From: a virus | IMG/VR virus record: IMGVR_UViG_3300044695_004134 | Span: 62,001 to 126,000 of that record | Strand: one strand, 5' to 3' | Length of the DNA: 64,000 nucleotides | In this document: piece after piece, positions 11,168 through 28,182 of the stretch | How the letters are laid out: every line of letters starts with the position of its first letter | Numbering within the stretch: the first letter of the stretch is position 1 | Program-made: the position numbers and the translations under genes | Notes under the pieces: generated by a model | What the model was told of the DNA's origin: nothing | What the model saw: the letters and a program-made list of their open reading frames with translations, nothing else | The model's database searches: none

Positions 11168-11425
11168 CTAAAGTTTTTCAATGTAGTTGTATTGAAGGTG
11201 CCGTTTAGCCTCATGTACCGAATGGGTTTTGTGGCCATTGATATAGATGACCTTCGGTGAATACACCAAAATCTCACCCTCAATCATTTTCAGGCGATAA
11301 AAGGTTTTACCTTTTGAATCAACTTCTTTGGTCCGGATATCACGGAAATTCTCAGCGAGACCTGCCCACATAAGTGTTTCACGAATCTCATCCGAGATTA
11401 ACATACGAAAATAATTTGCGTTCAT
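11168..11425 (-). CDS. Hypothetical protein, predicted leaderless
   Basis: An 85-residue protein (MNANYFRMLISDEIRETLMW...). A TATAAT box ends 5 nt before the ATG, so transcription should begin at or near the start codon, with no room for a Shine-Dalgarno. The later SPKVIYINGHKTHSVHEAKRHL looks like a compact basic domain. No known family recognised. Confidence 0.6.
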   Translation of the reverse strand: MNANYFRMLISDEIRETLMWAGLAENFRDIRTKEVDSKGKTFYRLKMIEGEILVYSPKVIYINGHKTHSVHEAKRHLQYNYIEKL

Positions 11426-13063: not shown

Positions 13064-13255
13064 TTAAATTCCTTTTGCTTTATATTCAAAGTTCCAATAC
13101 GGTCGACCATCTATAGTATACTCTATGTTACCACGCCTGTCAACAGTTTCAAGCCATCGACAGTCATTGTTTGCCACAGTAACTGGAAACCATGCGAACC
13201 AATCGTGCCATTGCATTTTACCTGAATAGTCTTTTAGTCCACATTTTAGTTTCAT
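13064..13255 (-). CDS. Hypothetical protein
   Basis: A 63-residue protein started at MKLKCGLKDYSGKMQWHDW, where the ATG overlaps the upstream TGA (ATGA). Rich in Trp, Tyr and Asp. Function unknown. A good TTGACA-N17-TATACT lies inside it and could drive the ATPase genes downstream. Confidence 0.55.
   Translation of the reverse strand: MKLKCGLKDYSGKMQWHDWFAWFPVTVANNDCRWLETVDRRGNIEYTIDGRPYWNFEYKAKGI
13115..13143 (-). promoter_or_regulatory. Possible intragenic promoter TTGACA-N17-TATACT
   Basis: -35 TTGACA at 13143-13138 and -10 TATACT at 13120-13115 on the - strand. It sits inside a short gene and just upstream of the 41-aa gene and the BCS1-like ATPase. Confidence 0.5.
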
Positions 13256-22724: not shown

Positions 22725-22928
22725 TCACCTCTTATAGTGAACCGGACGCTCATAACGACCTTCAGAGTCTCGATAAACGGAGACATAATGACCGTGCTTT
22801 GAACCATCATCGAAAGTGTAAGAGAAGGTAGAATTATAGGAGAGTGGAGGGAAATTCAGTGCCCATGATTCCAATAATCCTTCAGATTCAAGAGCAGAAT
22901 TGAGGGTGGGAAAGAAGTTTTGTTTCAT
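22725..22928 (-). CDS. Hypothetical protein
   Basis: A 67-residue protein (MKQNFFPTLNSALESEGLLE...). Tyr-, Ser- and His-rich C-terminal strand region. ATGA overlap with the leaderless gene upstream. Function unknown. Confidence 0.55.
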   Translation of the reverse strand: MKQNFFPTLNSALESEGLLESWALNFPPLSYNSTFSYTFDDGSKHGHYVSVYRDSEGRYERPVHYKR

Positions 22929-23164
22929 ACGAATAAATCTCCATAATATTCTTCATCAAAAGAATCAAAATCTTTTTGTATCCATTCAATAGTATAACCA
23001 GAAGAAGAATACTCAGAAGCCATTTTCTCCAACTCAGCAAGAGCCATAGAGGGAGAAAGTTTTCCAGAAGCCATCAGAGACAGGTTGGAGCAATGCATAA
23101 AGTTATTGGAATCTTTATGTGCGGAGACCTGAATGAATCGCTTGGGTGTGTTTGTGTGTGTCAT
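22925..23164 (-). CDS. Hypothetical protein, predicted leaderless
   Basis: 79 residues from MTHTNTPKRFIQVSAHKDSN. The start is set by the promoter: a TATAAT box ends exactly 7 nt before this ATG, so an upstream start is not available in the transcript. The middle (ASGKLSPSMALAELEKMASE) is helical and the C-terminus acidic. Function unknown. Confidence 0.65.
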   Translation of the reverse strand: MTHTNTPKRFIQVSAHKDSNNFMHCSNLSLMASGKLSPSMALAELEKMASEYSSSGYTIEWIQKDFDSFDEEYYGDLFV

Positions 23165-23171
23165 GGATGGT

Positions 23172-23199
23172 ATTATAGCGGTACTGGTAGGAATGGCAA
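23172..23199 (-). promoter_or_regulatory. Early promoter TTGCCA-N16-TATAAT, leaderless geometry
   Basis: -35 at 23199-23194, -10 at 23177-23172. The ATG at 23164 follows after 7 nt, the usual distance to the transcription start. Confidence 0.75.
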
Positions 23200-23301
23200 T
23201 AGCATAGTTAACGGGTGTGACGAAAATACAACATGGAACATTGGAACGTGTTGGATGACCAATATGCAATATAGTGCATGTGGAGAAAGGTGTTGAGAAC
23301 C

Positions 23302-23321
23302 TGTGGATAAACTGTGGATAA
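23302..23321 (-). promoter_or_regulatory. Two tandem DnaA boxes
   Basis: TTATCCACA twice on the - strand, start-to-start distance 11 bp, both matching the strict bacterial consensus. Host DnaA could bind here. Confidence 0.6.
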
Positions 23322-23435
23322 CTTTTGGGTGTCGCTGTATGTGTCGCAGGGTGTCGTGGGTGTTGGGTTGCTATTTAGTCTTAGTGTCTGGCTCTGAAAC
23401 GCCTGAAAATTTCACAGAGTGTCTCAGAGGTGACA

Positions 23436-23485
23436 GCACGTTTCCGCACGTTCCAGTGGGTTCCAGTGGGTTCCAGCACGGTTTG
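23436..23485 (+). repeat. Five 10-bp direct repeats (iteron-like)
   Basis: Units GCACGTTTCC, GCACGTTCCA, GTGGGTTCCA, GTGGGTTCCA, GCACGGTTTG run head to tail with a period of exactly 10 bp, so the same DNA face is presented each turn. Confidence 0.65.
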
Positions 23486-23559
23486 GAATGTTTTGCTCTG
23501 TGTGGGTGTCAGAATGTCTCAGAGTGGTGCTGGACGCCCATTGAAAAACCATCAGGCAG

Positions 23560-23603
23560 CCTCTACGTCCACCCCCAGTCTTGCTGTTCGAACCAATGGA
23601 TCC
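23560..23603 (-). ncRNA. Conserved early leader or small RNA element, copy A
   Basis: The 5' end of the transcript from the promoter at 23604-23632 shares a block with that of the promoter at 25678-25705: TTCGAA, AGCA(A/G)GACTGGGG and TGGAC, then GAGGCTG. No good ORF follows copy A, so it may be a short untranslated RNA. Structure not computed. Confidence 0.35.
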
Positions 23604-23632
23604 ATTGTACTCTAAAAAAGACCACCTGGCAA
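23604..23632 (-). promoter_or_regulatory. Early promoter TTGCCA-N17-TACAAT inside a terminator
   Basis: -35 TTGCCA at 23632-23627 lies in the loop and descending arm of the terminator at 23614-23642; -10 TACAAT at 23609-23604. It reads into the non-coding region. Confidence 0.6.
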
Positions 23633-23642
23633 CCACCAGGTG
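23614..23642 (-). terminator. Rho-independent terminator
   Basis: On the - strand: CACCTGG, loop TGGTTG, CCAGGTG, then GTCTTTTTT. It ends the AAA+ ATPase unit (24899 down to 23659). Confidence 0.75.
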
Positions 23643-23658
23643 TCTCATCTACGCAACA

Positions 23659-23883
23659 TCACTCCTCTTCGGAGAATCCTTCAATCAGCACTATCTGGTC
23701 CTCATAGTAGGACCTTTCCTCCTCCATGCACAGGTTACCCTCGACCTCGAACACCAGGTCCGTGGCCATCCTTTCGCCACAACCAGTGGAGGTCATCACG
23801 AATTTGATAATATCCTCGAATGCATCGCCATTGGTGATGCATGATTCAATATCGATAATCAAGTCTTTAAATTTGCTCATCAT
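23659..23883 (-). CDS. Hypothetical acidic protein
   Basis: 74 residues from MMSKFKDLIIDIESCITNGD; ends VLIEGFSEEE. The ATG overlaps the stop of the upstream 39-aa gene. A terminator follows 17 nt downstream of the stop. Function unknown. Confidence 0.6.
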   Translation of the reverse strand: MMSKFKDLIIDIESCITNGDAFEDIIKFVMTSTGCGERMATDLVFEVEGNLCMEEERSYYEDQIVLIEGFSEEE

Positions 23884-24002
23884 CAACCTTTCAATTTAGT
23901 GTATACTGTACGGGCGGTGAATGTAATATCAGGAATGCGGTGCTCACGCCGTGCCAACCAATTCACCATATACTTCCAACCAAATGCTTGTGTGTTCGTC
24001 AT
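23883..24002 (-). CDS. Small hypothetical protein (39 aa)
   Basis: Translates as MTNTQAFGWKYMVNWLARRE and ends VYTKLKG. An excellent AAAGGAGATATT precedes the ATG, and the stop overlaps the next start (TGATG). Basic and Trp-containing. It fills the gap below the AAA+ ATPase gene. Confidence 0.6.
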   Translation of the reverse strand: MTNTQAFGWKYMVNWLARREHRIPDITFTARTVYTKLKG

Positions 24003-24017
24003 AATATCTCCTTTAAA

Positions 24018-24899
24018 TTAACCGCAGATGGTGTATTCTGCAAGGTCTTTCCACTTGGCACCAGCAGACTTGCGGATTTTAGTGGTCTGGATGAGTGTAC
24101 GGAGTGACAATTCTTTCACCTCATCTTGGAGGTTGTCAATCAGGTCCAGAGCATCGGACTTTTCAGTCTTTGAATACTCTGGCATAAACTCAGGAAGGGA
24201 CACCAGGTGGCGCATACGCTCCACTTTTTGCTCGGTTGTCATTGTCAGGTCAACAGCCATGGAACGGGTGATGATGGCTTGGTCCATCGAATCGGAGGAC
24301 AGGTTAGAGATAAACACCACCCGGCCCTTGAATTCAAAGGATTGTGGGAGTTCGTCATCCTTCATGTCTGCACGCCATGAAATCACACGGCGGGAGTAGG
24401 AGTCCAATGCACCTTTGAGCAGGTTCAAGGACACTGGATCCTTCAGCACGGAATCGCAGTCGTCAAAAACAACCACGCCGTCCTTGTTTTCATACAGTGT
24501 ACGGTACAGGCCTTTTGGAGTGGAGTAGCCCTTGATAACACGGTAGGACTTGGTGGTGTTGATTTTGCCACCGACCTCGAATTCATCCAGGAGGGTAACG
24601 TCCTTCATGCCGGCATCATTCAGTGCCTTGGTGACGGTGTGGGACTTGCCAAGGCCACCGGGACCAGATACAACCACCGAGGACTGGTCACCTTTCACCA
24701 ACATGGCGACCATGTCAGACACGAAACCGAACCGCTGGTTGATGGTGAAGCGGGACTCCTTCACATTGACAGGAGCACCACCGGTGGCACCTGTAGCCTT
24801 GCGGATCACATAGTCCATGTGTTCCTTTTTGGCACGCTTGACCACCTTGCCGTTGATGTTGGCCACGTATTTGCCACCTACGAACTTGACTTCAATCAT
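24018..24899 (-). CDS. AAA+ ATPase (phage-type)
   Basis: A 293-residue protein. Walker A GPGGLGKS (residues 79-86), GVVVFDDCDSVL (Walker B), GRVVFISNLSSDSMDQAIITRSM (sensor 1 and Arg-finger region). The N-terminal 50 residues (KYVANINGKVVKRAKKEHMD) form a separate small domain. It resembles AAA ATPases found in many phages near replication or early genes, distinct from the BCS1-like and CobS-like ATPases elsewhere in this window. GC-rich codons compared with flanking regions. SD AAAGGAAATT. Confidence 0.85.
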   Translation of the reverse strand: MIEVKFVGGKYVANINGKVVKRAKKEHMDYVIRKATGATGGAPVNVKESRFTINQRFGFVSDMVAMLVKGDQSSVVVSGPGGLGKSHTVTKALNDAGMKDVTLLDEFEVGGKINTTKSYRVIKGYSTPKGLYRTLYENKDGVVVFDDCDSVLKDPVSLNLLKGALDSYSRRVISWRADMKDDELPQSFEFKGRVVFISNLSSDSMDQAIITRSMAVDLTMTTEQKVERMRHLVSLPEFMPEYSKTEKSDALDLIDNLQDEVKELSLRTLIQTTKIRKSAGAKWKDLAEYTICG

Positions 24900-24927
24900 A
24901 ATTTCCTTTTTTCTTTACAATGGTTGG

Positions 24928-24955
24928 ATTATACAGGTACCACTTAGAATGGCAA
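24928..24955 (-). promoter_or_regulatory. Early promoter TTGCCA-N16-TATAAT
   Basis: -35 at 24955-24950, -10 at 24933-24928, upstream of the AAA+ ATPase; preceded 7 nt upstream by a TTGACC-N5-GGTCAA palindrome. Confidence 0.8.
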
Positions 24956-24962
24956 CCAATAC

Positions 24963-24979
24963 TTGACCGGACAGGTCAA
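24963..24979. promoter_or_regulatory. Palindromic operator-like site, copy 1
   Basis: TTGACC-GGACA-GGTCAA, a perfect 6-bp inverted repeat with a 5-bp spacer. It lies 7 nt upstream of the -35 of the AAA+ promoter and overlaps the stop codon of the preceding gene. Confidence 0.6.
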
Positions 24980-25263
24980 CATTCAGGGTCAAAATCCGCC
25001 CACTCTTGGGCTTCGTCCGGCTGACCGTCATCCTCATCCTCGGACTCCATCTCATCCTCGGTGAGACCTTCCACGAAGGTGTCTTCCTCGGTCAAGGAAT
25101 CCACGTAGTCGTTAAAGGAGCACCGGTATGCCACCGGGTCGACCTCACGCAGGACCTCGGAAGCGGAATAGGTCATACCGCACAGTTCCACCGGACCTTC
25201 ACAGTCGTCCAGCATCTCATCAAACCATGCATAGGCGGTGCGCTCAGATATTAAACGGGACAT
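24976..25263 (-). CDS. Conserved acidic phage protein
   Basis: A 95-residue protein: YAWFDEMLDDCEGPVELCG, then ASEVLREVDPVAYRCSFNDYVDS, then a very acidic C-terminus. The LREVDP.AYR..F.DYVD block is familiar from many phage proteins of unknown function. It is the first gene of a promoter-palindrome module (AGGAAAG before the ATG). Confidence 0.65.
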   Translation of the reverse strand: MSRLISERTAYAWFDEMLDDCEGPVELCGMTYSASEVLREVDPVAYRCSFNDYVDSLTEEDTFVEGLTEDEMESEDEDDGQPDEAQEWADFDPEC

Positions 25264-25295
25264 TTTCTTTCCTTTTCTTTCACAATATGGATTGG

Positions 25296-25323
25296 ATTAT
25301 ACAGGTTTCGGTAGGTTTGTCAA
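25296..25323 (-). promoter_or_regulatory. Early promoter TTGACA-N16-TATAAT
   Basis: Consensus -35 at 25323-25318 and -10 at 25301-25296 on the - strand, with the second palindrome 7 nt upstream. Probably one of the strongest promoters in the window. Confidence 0.82.
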
Positions 25324-25330
25324 CCAATAC

Positions 25331-25347
25331 TTGACCGGATTGGTCAA
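25331..25347. promoter_or_regulatory. Palindromic operator-like site, copy 2
   Basis: TTGACC-GGATT-GGTCAA; same position relative to its promoter as copy 1 (7 nt) and again overlapping a stop codon. Confidence 0.6.
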
Positions 25348-25553
25348 GAATCGAATTCGCAGGATTGAGTGTTGTACAGGTACAACGCCTCGCCCTCATT
25401 CAGGATGGCCGCCACTTCCATGGCTTCCTGTTCGGAATCAAATGATTCTATGGAGGTGCCCATGCGGACACCATTCACCAGTGGAGACCAGCGGACCACA
25501 CGGAAGTCCATGGTTTTGTCGTGGTATTCGGCGGTGTAGGTTTTGTTCATCAT
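25344..25553 (-). CDS. Hypothetical protein, predicted leaderless
   Basis: 69 residues (MMNKTYTAEYHDKTMDFRVV...). A TAGAAT -10 ends 7 nt before the ATG. The sequence also sits in frame behind a longer ORF beginning at the TATAAT of a second upstream promoter, but no ribosome site supports that reading. Function unknown. Confidence 0.6.
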   Translation of the reverse strand: MMNKTYTAEYHDKTMDFRVVRWSPLVNGVRMGTSIESFDSEQEAMEVAAILNEGEALYLYNTQSCEFDS

Positions 25554-25560
25554 GTCGTGG

Positions 25561-25588
25561 ATTCTACAGGTTCCAGCAGGTTTGGCAA
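25561..25588 (-). promoter_or_regulatory. Early promoter TTGCCA-N16-TAGAAT, leaderless geometry
   Basis: -35 at 25588-25583, -10 at 25566-25561; 7 nt to the ATG at 25553. Confidence 0.65.
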
Positions 25589-25628
25589 CCATGCTTGCAA
25601 TAGTCGACCAAAATGGTGGGTTATTAAT

Positions 25629-25677
25629 ATAACGCCCAGCCTCCGTGTCCACCCCAGTCCTGCTTTCGAATAGGTCC
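25629..25677 (-). ncRNA. Conserved early leader element, copy B
   Basis: Transcript 5' region below the promoter at 25678-25705. It shares with copy A (23560-23603) TTCGAA, AGCAGGACTGGGG, TGGAC and GAGGCTG. The message then runs into the second promoter and the gene at 25553. Could be a structured leader. Confidence 0.35.
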
Positions 25678-25705
25678 ATTATACCAGAACCAGCCGGTTT
25701 GGCAA
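25678..25705 (-). promoter_or_regulatory. Early promoter TTGCCA-N16-TATAAT
   Basis: -35 at 25705-25700, -10 at 25683-25678. Divergent from the + strand promoter at 25753-25780, with only 47 nt between the two -35 boxes. Confidence 0.75.
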
Positions 25706-25716
25706 GTAACCAAATA

Positions 25717-25783
25717 GTTCTCCATCCTTCCGGTGGGTCATTCCGAGGATGGTTGCCATTCTCGCTGGTTCTGGTATACTCCG
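25717..25783 (+). repeat. Promoter module, copy 1
   Basis: Nearly the same sequence recurs at 25985-26047: TCCGGT, then GTCATTCC/GTATTCC, then GGATGGTTGCCATTC and CGCTGGTTCTGGTATA. Here the palindrome is degenerate. Confidence 0.6.
25753..25780 (+). promoter_or_regulatory. Early promoter TTGCCA-N16-TATACT (+), leaderless geometry
   Basis: -35 at 25753-25758, -10 at 25775-25780; the ATG of the next gene begins 7 nt later. Confidence 0.75.
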
Positions 25784-25787
25784 TTCC

Positions 25788-25988
25788 ATGATAAAATCAA
25801 TTCAACCAACCGACCGCAAGGTCCAAGCCCAATACCTGCTGGACGGTGTATTGGTTACAATTTGCAAGCCTGCCCGCCCCCGTAGGTCGGAACGGACTTG
25901 GTCGGCTGGTGCCAAGTATTCGGTTGCCAACCTTGGAGCCAAGGGTACCAACCTGCGGAATGCTGGCTTGAACCATGCCAAAGGTTGA
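25788..25988 (+). CDS. Small basic protein, predicted leaderless
   Basis: 66 residues (MIKSIQPTDRKVQAQYLLDG...). Very basic: PARPRRSERTWSAGAKYSVANLG. The -10 ends 7 nt before the ATG. The stop codon is in TTGACC of the third palindrome. Might bind nucleic acid or a host protein; no family recognised. Confidence 0.55.
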   Translation: MIKSIQPTDRKVQAQYLLDGVLVTICKPARPRRSERTWSAGAKYSVANLGAKGTNLRNAGLNHAKG

Positions 25989-26001
25989 CCAATCCGGTCA
26001 A
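25985..26001. promoter_or_regulatory. Palindromic operator-like site, copy 3
   Basis: TTGACC-AATCC-GGTCAA, 15 nt upstream of the + strand promoter at 26017-26044; it overlaps the stop codon of the gene before it, like copies 1 and 2. Confidence 0.6.
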
Positions 26002-26016
26002 GTATTCCAAGGATGG

Positions 26017-26044
26017 TTGCCATTCCCGCTGGTTCTGGTATAAT
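26017..26044 (+). promoter_or_regulatory. Early promoter TTGCCA-N16-TATAAT (+)
   Basis: -35 at 26017-26022, -10 at 26039-26044. Drives the GP88-family gene, whose ATG is 30 nt downstream. Confidence 0.8.
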
Positions 26045-26074
26045 ACAGTCATACAATCAAGCAAAGGTCAAAAA

Positions 26075-26824
26075 ATGAATTTACTCTCCACTGGCAACCC
26101 TAAGGTCCTCAAAGGCATGGCTCAGGGTTACAATACCTACATCCTGCACCTCGCTCCAGCCGACCTGTCCGGTTATGAGACCTGCGCCAAGCGGACCAAA
26201 GGTTGCACGGTGGCATGCCTGAACCTCGCAGGACGTGGTGGCATGTTCAAAAAAGGTGAAACCACCAACGTTATCCAGCAGGCTCGAATCCGCAAAACCA
26301 AAATGTTTTTCCAAGACCGTGAGATATTCATGAGCCTTTTGGTCAAAGATATTGAATTGGCTATTAAACAATCCGCCAAAATCAATATGGTCCCAGTGAT
26401 TCGCCTTAATGGCACTTCGGACCTGGCCTTTGAAAAGTATGCCGCAGTCCGTAATGGTGTGGAATATAAAAACATTTTCATGGCATTCCCTGAATTACAA
26501 TTCTATGATTATACCAAGATTCTCGGCCGCAAAATCGCCGATTATCCAAACTATTCTCTGACATTCTCGGCAGCCGATGGTAATGATACGGACGTAGCCA
26601 AGGCAATTGCCCAAGGTTATAACGTGGCAGTGGTATTCGGTATTAAGAAAACCCTCCCAATGCCTGCCGATTATCTGAGTATGCCAGTTTTTAATGGCGA
26701 TGAGTCGGACCTCCGTTTTCTGGATCCAAAAGGCTCGATTATCGGCTTATATGCCAAAGGCAAAGCCAAAAAAGATACCACTGGTTTTGTAAAATACCCC
26801 GCCATTATGATGGCATCCGTTTAA
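26075..26824 (+). CDS. GP88-family protein
   Basis: 249 residues from MNLLSTGNPKVLKGMAQGYN. The conserved block ILHLAPADLSGYETCAKRTKGCTVACLNLAGRG has the Cys residues typical of the GP88 family (first named from a mycobacteriophage gene 88 protein). ARIRKTKMFFQDREIFMSLLVKDIE and VIRLNGTSDLAFEKY also match. Radical-SAM-like behaviour has been guessed for this family because of its Cys cluster, but activity is unproven. AAAGG lies upstream; expressed from its own early promoter. Confidence 0.85.
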   Translation: MNLLSTGNPKVLKGMAQGYNTYILHLAPADLSGYETCAKRTKGCTVACLNLAGRGGMFKKGETTNVIQQARIRKTKMFFQDREIFMSLLVKDIELAIKQSAKINMVPVIRLNGTSDLAFEKYAAVRNGVEYKNIFMAFPELQFYDYTKILGRKIADYPNYSLTFSAADGNDTDVAKAIAQGYNVAVVFGIKKTLPMPADYLSMPVFNGDESDLRFLDPKGSIIGLYAKGKAKKDTTGFVKYPAIMMASV

Positions 26825-26840
26825 ACTGAAAGGAAACATT

Positions 26841-27062
26841 ATGTCCAAAATCAAGCTCCCATTTGAATGCATGGTTGGCACTGAAAATGAGGTTATAACC
26901 AATCCATTCTCAGGAGAATCCATTACATTATCTCCAGAGGCCGTGGCGGTATATGATACCATTATGGGTTGCCAAATGGTCGGTGATTATAAGAGAATGC
27001 AAAAAGGACTGGATTGGTTTCGCCGCCATTATGCCCGAGAATATATGGTCCTCCTGGATTGA
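26841..27062 (+). CDS. Conserved hypothetical protein
   Basis: 73 residues (MSKIKLPFECMVGTENEVIT...). NPFSGESITLSPEAVAVYDTIMG and DWFRRHYAREYMVLLD look like a short conserved phage protein of unknown function. GAAAGGAAAC precedes the ATG; same operon as GP88. Confidence 0.65.
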   Translation: MSKIKLPFECMVGTENEVITNPFSGESITLSPEAVAVYDTIMGCQMVGDYKRMQKGLDWFRRHYAREYMVLLD

Positions 27063-27095
27063 TCCAGTACGTGGCTGGAGAACTAAGGTTCTAGG

Positions 27096-27124
27096 TTGCC
27101 ATTTTCACGCCCTTCCGCCATAAT
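27096..27124 (+). promoter_or_regulatory. Possible promoter TTGCCA-N17-CATAAT (+)
   Basis: -35 at 27096-27101, -10 at 27119-27124, in the gap before the 65-aa gene. The -10 is weaker than in the others. Confidence 0.5.
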
Positions 27125-27155
27125 CCAATCCATGTTGAATTTGAAAGGAAACAAA

Positions 27156-27353
27156 ATGACAAATCAAGACTTGGCCAAGGCACTGGTGGCTGCCATTCAG
27201 GACCGCCAATTCGCCCGTGGCGAGGAACTCCACGCCGCCAACTCTTACACCGTTGGCTACCTTGAGGGTCTCATTGGTACACTCTGCCACCTCAGCCCCA
27301 AGGCTAAAAAAGAGGTTATGAGCACCTTGGTATACGTTTCGACCAACAAGTAA
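27156..27353 (+). CDS. Conserved hypothetical protein
   Basis: 65 residues from MTNQDLAKALVAAIQDRQFA, with GAAAGGAAACAAA before the ATG. YTVGYLEGLIGTLCHLSPKAKKEVMSTL is typical of small phage proteins. Function unknown. Confidence 0.65.
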   Translation: MTNQDLAKALVAAIQDRQFARGEELHAANSYTVGYLEGLIGTLCHLSPKAKKEVMSTLVYVSTNK

Positions 27354-27365
27354 GGAGTAATACTA

Positions 27366-27596
27366 ATGACTGATTTTGAGACCAAGTGCTACGGCATGAC
27401 CGAAGCCGATATCCGGAGCCAGTACATGGGCTCCATCACCGCTAAATTCTCCGGCTTGGAGATGGTGGTCATGTCCATCCTGTCCGATTGTCAGGAACTC
27501 GGTGCCATGGGTCGGAATGAGGCAGTCCGTAAACAGTTGAACGTGGCTAAATTCATCCTCTCGGAAATGATGGATGCCCGTGGCCATTCGGTATAA
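27366..27596 (+). CDS. Conserved hypothetical protein
   Basis: 76 residues (MTDFETKCYGMTEADIRSQY...). MVVMSILSDCQELGAMGRNEAVRKQLNVAKFILSE is helical. TAAGGAGTAATACTA gives a strong ribosome site. Function unknown. Confidence 0.65.
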   Translation: MTDFETKCYGMTEADIRSQYMGSITAKFSGLEMVVMSILSDCQELGAMGRNEAVRKQLNVAKFILSEMMDARGHSV

Positions 27597-27610
27597 GGAA
27601 AGGAATCATT

Positions 27611-27712
27611 ATGTTTTCAGAAAATAAGTGGGAAGACCTTGCATTCAAGGTGGTGCTGGTGCTAGGTGTGGTGGTTGTGTTGCTGGACCTGGTGTACTGG
27701 AGACCAGGTTAA
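27611..27712 (+). CDS. Small membrane protein (33 aa)
   Basis: Translates as MFSENKWEDLAFKVVLVLGV, then a hydrophobic Val/Leu run, ending YWRPG. GGAAAGGAATCATT precedes the ATG. The last gene of the + strand early operon, directly before a terminator. Confidence 0.55.
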   Translation: MFSENKWEDLAFKVVLVLGVVVVLLDLVYWRPG

Positions 27713-27737
27713 AGGTTGGACACCAGTTGGTGGGGAG

Positions 27738-27759
27738 AGGCGCTTAGGCGCCTTTTTTT
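27738..27759 (+). terminator. Rho-independent terminator (+)
   Basis: AGGCGC, loop TTAG, GCGCCT, then seven T. Ends the + strand early operon. Confidence 0.85.
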
Positions 27760-27933
27760 GCGCTTAAAAATCTGGGGCACTGTACCTTAAAGGTAATACT
27801 ATGTAAGTAATTTTGTGCTATGGCCCAAACTCTTTTTTCCCTAAATTTATTTTCTGGGGCCCCTAGCACATTTTCGAATTTTTCACTTTCACATCCCTCT
27901 GGAATTTTCTCCGGACCCCCTACACGGTTTTCG

Positions 27934-27962
27934 AAAAAAAAGGAGTCACTCTCGGACTCCTT
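27934..27962 (-). terminator. Rho-independent terminator (-)
   Basis: On the - strand: AAGGAGTC, loop, GACTCCTT running into eight T. Ends the operon coming from 28 kb and above. Confidence 0.85.
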
Positions 27963-27996
27963 CTATACCGTTCTACGGTTTCTCTACACTTCTCTA

Positions 27997-28182
27997 TTAC
28001 TCCGCTACATCTCCAGCTAAGTCTTCTAAACCGATCAATTCTTGCGTTTCTAAGATATTCGCTCTCTCCTGTGCGGCTTCTTCTGTTGTGAAGTATCCAG
28101 TCTGTACAAACAGTCCTTTTTCTTCGTCTGCGTAGTCTACAATGAAGTGTTCACCTTCTGCTCTTACTGTGGTCTTTGACAT
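27997..28182 (-). CDS. Hypothetical protein
   Basis: 61 residues (MSKTTVRAEGEHFIVDYADE...). Short beta-beta-alpha pattern with acidic end. A late-promoter variant lies upstream at 28217-28224. Function unknown. Confidence 0.6.
   Translation of the reverse strand: MSKTTVRAEGEHFIVDYADEEKGLFVQTGYFTTEEAAQERANILETQELIGLEDLAGDVAE

Follow-up and report, generated by a model that had tools for sequence, protein, structure and literature searches.

Predicted leaderless genes at a repeated promoter cassette of a T4-like phage

The window, a stretch of 64,000 nucleotides, covers bases 62001–126000 of a 166,193-base virus record. Matches of the primase-helicase to cyanophages and to Pelagibacter phage HTVC008M indicate that the virus is of the T4-like type, and its genome includes about 30 tRNA genes and one tmRNA gene. 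Between small genes, a terminator-like stem-loop and a host-type promoter are repeated as a cassette, some copies of which lack the stem-loop; gene turnover is observed at one cassette. The G+C content of the cassette-rich region (24001–28000) is 48.6%, versus 37–41% in the rest of the window. At four promoters, the -10 box lies only a few nucleotides before the ATG of a small gene:

23172–23199, minus strand: promoter of 23164, TTGCCA-N16-TATAAT, then ACCATCC, then ATG
22925–23164, minus strand: predicted leaderless gene 23164, 79 aa; N-terminus MTHTNTPK, CA-rich first codons
22725–22928, minus strand: second gene (MKQNFFPTL...) of the 23164 unit, with GGAG inside gene 1
25561–25588, minus strand: promoter of 25553, TTGCCA-N16-TAGAAT, then CCACGAC, then ATG
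25344–25553, minus strand: predicted leaderless gene 25553, 69 aa
25753–25780, plus strand: promoter of 25788, TTGCCA-N16-TATACT, then CCGTTCC, then ATG
25788–25988, plus strand: predicted leaderless gene 25788, 66 aa
11431–11459, minus strand: promoter of 11425, TTGCCA-N17-TATAAT, then ATATT, then ATG
11168–11425, minus strand: fourth predicted leaderless gene, 11425, 85 aa; 5 nt from the -10 to the ATG

The four candidate proteins match no family in Pfam or PHROGs, and AlphaFold models of the 23164 (mean pLDDT 80) and 11425 (68) proteins have no PDB match at E ≤ 0.001. Relatives of 23164 were absent from the bacterial genomes and the phage record collection searched.

An earlier note had described 23164, 25553 (both minus strand) and 25788 (plus strand) as carrying TTGCCA, a 16-nt spacer, a -10 box, exactly 7 nt and an ATG, and we found every one of these elements in place (these are the N7 genes below). 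For 11425, the 5-nt spacing that it gave was borne out, but the promoter spacer is 17 nt rather than 16. Its description of neighbours under the same promoter family also held: their -10-to-ATG distances are 28–32 nt (28 for 24899, 32 for 25263, 30 for 26075 and 32 for 22498), with a Shine-Dalgarno (SD)-like site, AAGGA or AAAGG. The leadered controls and two stem-loops of the cassette are:

24928–24955, minus strand: leadered control promoter, CCAACC-ATT..AAAAAAGGAAATT-ATG; gene 24018–24899
24963–24979, minus strand: stem-loop TTGACCTGTCCGGTCAA, directly before the promoter at 24955 (cassette unit)
25296–25323, minus strand: leadered control promoter (TTGACA), CCAATCC-ATA..AAGGAAAGAAA-ATG; gene 24976–25263
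25330–25348, minus strand: stem-loop CTTGACCAATCCGGTCAAG, directly before the promoter at 25323 (cassette unit)
26017–26044, plus strand: leadered control promoter, ATG at 30 nt; GP88 gene 26075–26824

Two further promoters of the family (25705–25600 and 23632–23560, both minus strand) lead into similar sequences without an evident gene, TTCGAA..GACTGGGG.TGGAC..GAGGCTG, which are also present in several relatives. These gene-less sequences have no Rfam match, and their single-sequence folding energy is not unusual.

At one offset, 3 of 40 strong promoters have an ATG-led ORF of at least 40 codons (p ~0.0014, a rough guide only, based on the genome-wide frequency of such ATGs and an offset picked after the data were seen), and the CAT start-site context of this promoter family makes an ATG at that offset about one-in-four likely. 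Because the offset was chosen post hoc, we do not rely on this p value and take the conservation of the spacing in orthologs as the main evidence. The tmRNA gene (L005:1368–1742, genome 61368–61742, minus strand; tag ANDSEYRLAA) has a near-consensus promoter of its own, which recurs together with the sequence after it in G002, G003 and G005; its -10, too, is followed after 7 nt by an ATG, so that an ATG at this offset alone is no proof. Among minus-strand candidates that we rejected, genome 61749 is this tmRNA promoter, genome 59519 falls within an ORF whose conservation extends to either side of the apparent promoter, and at 13143, in the two genomes compared, the ATG overlaps the apparent 3' end of the frame before it. 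Genome 137043 has a frame of 4 codons only, and genome 142712 an unconfirmed 38-codon frame. In IMG/VR-wide pattern scans, 11 of 112 sites at N7 versus 3 of 93 at the control N12 looked like gene starts among the matches listed, figures that are suggestive only.

Orthologs were gathered from viral contigs, whose haplotypes are not fully independent because of shared ancestry. The earlier note had pointed to related promoters as a check on the spacing, and these agree with it: exactly 7 nt are kept for the N7 genes and 5–6 nt for 11425. All four other distinct sequences of 23164 orthologs that share the promoter family (72–90% identical) have 7 nt, as do the four other distinct upstream sequences of 25553 orthologs (67–72% aa). 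The one ortholog sequence of 25788, 92% identical, reads TACAAT-CCATTCC-ATG, again with 7 nt. The length is fixed while the letters vary (ACCATCC/ACAACAC; CCACGAC/CCAACCC/CCAAGAC; CCGTTCC/CCATTCC); in L303, the promoter spacer differs and ACAACAC replaces ACCATCC, and the length is still 7. In the 11425 family, the distance is 5 or 6 nt across 8 distinct start sequences, counting that of this phage, with aa identities as low as 66%. One of its members, L355, has a 16-nt spacer plus 6 nt in place of 17 plus 5, leaving the -35-to-ATG distance unchanged. In L360–L364, the promoter upstream of the 11425 orthologs lies within an inverted repeat ending GTGAGGTTTTTT, a terminator-like hairpin that overlaps the promoter and an SD-like GAGG.

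The substitutions indicate where the proteins begin. Initiation at a downstream codon had been named as an observation that would speak against leaderless messages; instead, purifying selection begins at the promoter-proximal ATG in 23164, 25553 and 11425. Pooled pN/pS in the first 12 codons versus the 36 nt directly upstream of the ATG, read in the same frame, is 0.36 versus 0.89 for 23164, 0.38 versus 0.79 for 25553 and 0.10 versus 3.0 for 11425; 25788 shows too little variation for this measure. The next in-frame ATG is missing in G002 for 25553 and in L355–L357 for 11425, and the in-frame ATG upstream of 25788 (at 25749) is not conserved, being absent in G004/G005.

The candidates lack the SD that is usual in this phage, where the median duplex energy is -4.0 kcal/mol for ORFs of at least 100 aa versus -0.7 at random positions. 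The four candidates have SD duplex energies of +0.9, +0.2, -2.8 and +0.6, and their leadered neighbours -3.4 to -5.6. Distant orthologs of 23164, and likewise those of 11425, have an SD leader. Within the 23164 family, 5 leaderless members (mean SD energy +1.3) stand against 19 distinct leadered ones (mean -5.5), the majority of which have a clear SD; in the 11425 family, the count is 8 leaderless (-1.8) versus 6 leadered (-6.3). Both forms also occur at nearby copies of one promoter: in G004/G005, GGTTGCCATTCTCGCTGGTTCTGGTACAATCCATTCCAT is present twice, once continuing as GATAAAATC, which ends in CCATG and opens the leaderless 25788 ortholog, and once as AGTAAATTGAAAAGG...ATG (CCATAGTAAATTGAAAAGG..ATG; CCATA plus an SD leader), which opens an SD-led gene. 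Gene content can change at such a promoter as well. The second gene (MKQNFFPTL...) follows the 23164 gene in G000, G003, G005 and G006, and in G000 and G003 a GGAG inside gene 1 directly precedes it. G002 lacks gene 1, and there gene 2 begins 7 nt from the same -10 and would itself be leaderless.

Upon comparing the promoters themselves, we noticed a shared start-site context. CAT begins 5 or 6 nt after the -10 in 16 of 32 promoters, and any other offset accounts for at most 2; this set comprises the distinct TTGCCA-type promoters of this phage and its relatives that have no ATG at offsets 5–8. Sigma-70 promoters classically start transcription in this context, with the A of CAT as +1. At the same position the three N7 genes read CATG, and 11425 reads TATG. 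Because the SD-led siblings carry CAT at this offset, transcription of the leaderless genes is expected to start (+1) on the A of their ATG. Leadered and leaderless members thus appear to share one start-site design and to differ in what comes after it. CAT followed by G also occurs at a presumed non-coding transcript (G002:58989 and G003:32720), with no gene beginning there.

The coding starts of the N7 genes are rich in A and C. After the ATG, the A+C fraction is 0.77–0.80 in these three genes (96th–99th percentile of 216 ORFs of the phage); 11425, at 0.47 (21st percentile), has no CA-rich start. Within the 23164 family, the mean is 0.85 in leaderless versus 0.62 in leadered members. CA repeats near the start raise leaderless translation, and leadered translation too (PMC9031893). 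The extra N-terminal residues of the leaderless 23164 protein, MTxTNT, have a pLDDT below 50 in the AlphaFold model, a low confidence in keeping with an effect at the RNA level and not in the protein fold.

Conserved spacing, a coding boundary with selection from the ATG, the lack of an SD, the CAT context and SD-led distant orthologs together support the leaderless reading of the earlier note well, with the transcription start standing as a prediction. We consider it very probable that 23164, 25553, 25788 and probably 11425 are leaderless genes that arose by cassette joining at the transcription start. In this mechanism, a phage-wide cassette (stem-loop, host-type promoter and a C-A-T context 7–8 nt after the -10) would have been reused before many short genes. 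At most cassette sites, CAT would be followed by a leader of about 25 nt with a Shine-Dalgarno. At 23164, 25553, 25788 and probably 11425, by contrast, the ORF would have been joined with the A of its ATG on the transcription start, and the message would then open with the start codon and be translated by leaderless, 5'-AUG 70S-type initiation (PMC9031893), aided by the CA-rich coding start at the three N7 genes. 11425 is the weakest of the four: its spacing is conserved but tighter, at 5 nt, it needs an unusually close start, and it has no CA-rich beginning. For all candidate genes, we infer that the promoters are active, that transcription starts at exactly this base, that translation is leaderless and that timing is early. 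As to the timing, the host-type promoters, which differ from the T4-late-type TATAAATA sites, suggest that 23164, 25553, 25788 and 11425 are transcribed early.

The genes could be real and their messages nonetheless leadered, if transcription began further upstream and ribosomes loaded on an SD-less leader (for example through S1 on A/C-rich unstructured RNA). A same-family promoter does lie at 25705, about 120 nt upstream of 25553 and with no clear terminator after it, so that read-through could add a second, longer message for 25553, and CA-rich sequence aids leadered messages as well. Yet the sequence upstream of 23164 and 25788 diverges in relatives while promoter and spacing persist, each ATG is directly preceded by a conserved -35/-10 pair close to consensus, and leadered relatives use a real SD; we regard such upstream starts as improbable. 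The ATG at +1 might otherwise be a by-product of the CAT context without translational meaning, with translation beginning at another codon. Indeed, CAT is kept at the same place without a gene start, and CATG stands at the presumed non-coding transcript. Against this, protein-level selection starts at that very ATG, relatives of 25553 and 11425 lack the next ATG in frame, and SD-led 23164 orthologs begin at nearly the same residue, within a few positions of the same place; no alternative SD-led start was seen. This makes a mere by-product highly improbable.

The earlier note had also suggested that leaderless messages could suit the first minutes of infection. Joining of an ORF at the shared cassette initiator yields leaderless genes by itself, so that an early-infection benefit of 70S initiation is not needed to account for the pattern. 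Leaderless translation as a selected early-infection device, for example one resisting control of SD-led initiation, would add to cassette joining. The leaderless state is retained across 66–72% protein identity, it is kept or regained when the gene content at the promoter changes, and within the 23164 family CA-rich start codons occur only in leaderless members. But many relatives have SD-led orthologs, most larger genes of the phage are SD-led, and leaderless and SD-led genes stand side by side under the same promoter, which leaves a selected device conceivable but doubtful. Rather unlikely, in our estimate, is the further idea that the cassette initiator CAT may double as a start codon, letting a captured gene be expressed without bringing its own ribosome-binding site, with switching between leaderless and SD-led forms being an evolved choice of translation mode in infection.

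Bacterial leaderless genes carry TANNNT some 12 bp upstream of the start codon (PMC3160421, PMC12340547), and in bacteria a -10-like signal at such a distance is accepted as the hallmark of these genes (PMC3160421). The phage candidates resemble them in having the -10 directly before the ATG, no SD and the start codon at the predicted transcription start. They differ in that the bacterial genes lie on chromosomes and are common in Actinobacteria and Deinococcus-Thermus, whereas here only about four genes of an otherwise SD-led phage are concerned, and in that a near-consensus -35 is also present. Leaderless phage messages are established for lambda cI and for middle and late genes of phiYS40 (PMC3594737). 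Like these, the candidates are phage genes with a 5'-terminal AUG, here predicted. Lambda cI is a prophage repressor, and most middle and late genes of phiYS40 are leaderless; in the T4-like phage, by contrast, it would be a few genes with host-type promoters, which have SD-led siblings and orthologs. The cassette itself recalls the promoter-terminator cassettes called PeSLs in T4-like phages (Arbiol 2010 and Comeau 2014, as cited in PMC4503421). The likeness is one of layout: a stem-loop and a host-type promoter repeated at small-gene boundaries in a variable region. We know of no description of a leaderless PeSL variant joined at its initiator. Less usual would be the natural switching of orthologous phage genes between leaderless and SD-led forms under one cassette. 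Such natural pairs in related phages, with both forms under one promoter sequence in one relative, make the evolution and use of leaderless initiation directly testable. Moreover, small ORFs that start right at a -10 box can be real, and SD-based gene finders may miss or mis-start them.

One site combines both forms:

27096–27156, plus strand: mixed case, TTGCCA-N17-CATAAT-CCAATCC-ATG; a second, SD-led ATG follows 24 nt downstream in the same frame

The pattern is found in four contigs, with the ATG 6–7 nt after the -10 and in frame every time. E. coli messages with a 5'-terminal AUG plus an internal SD are known (PMC4965119); 27132/27156 has a similar sequence pattern, one AUG lying at the predicted 5' end and a second, SD-led one 24 nt on. 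It differs from them in that, in all four contigs, both AUGs share a frame. The AUG at the predicted 5' end and the SD-led AUG could thus possibly act as a dual start.
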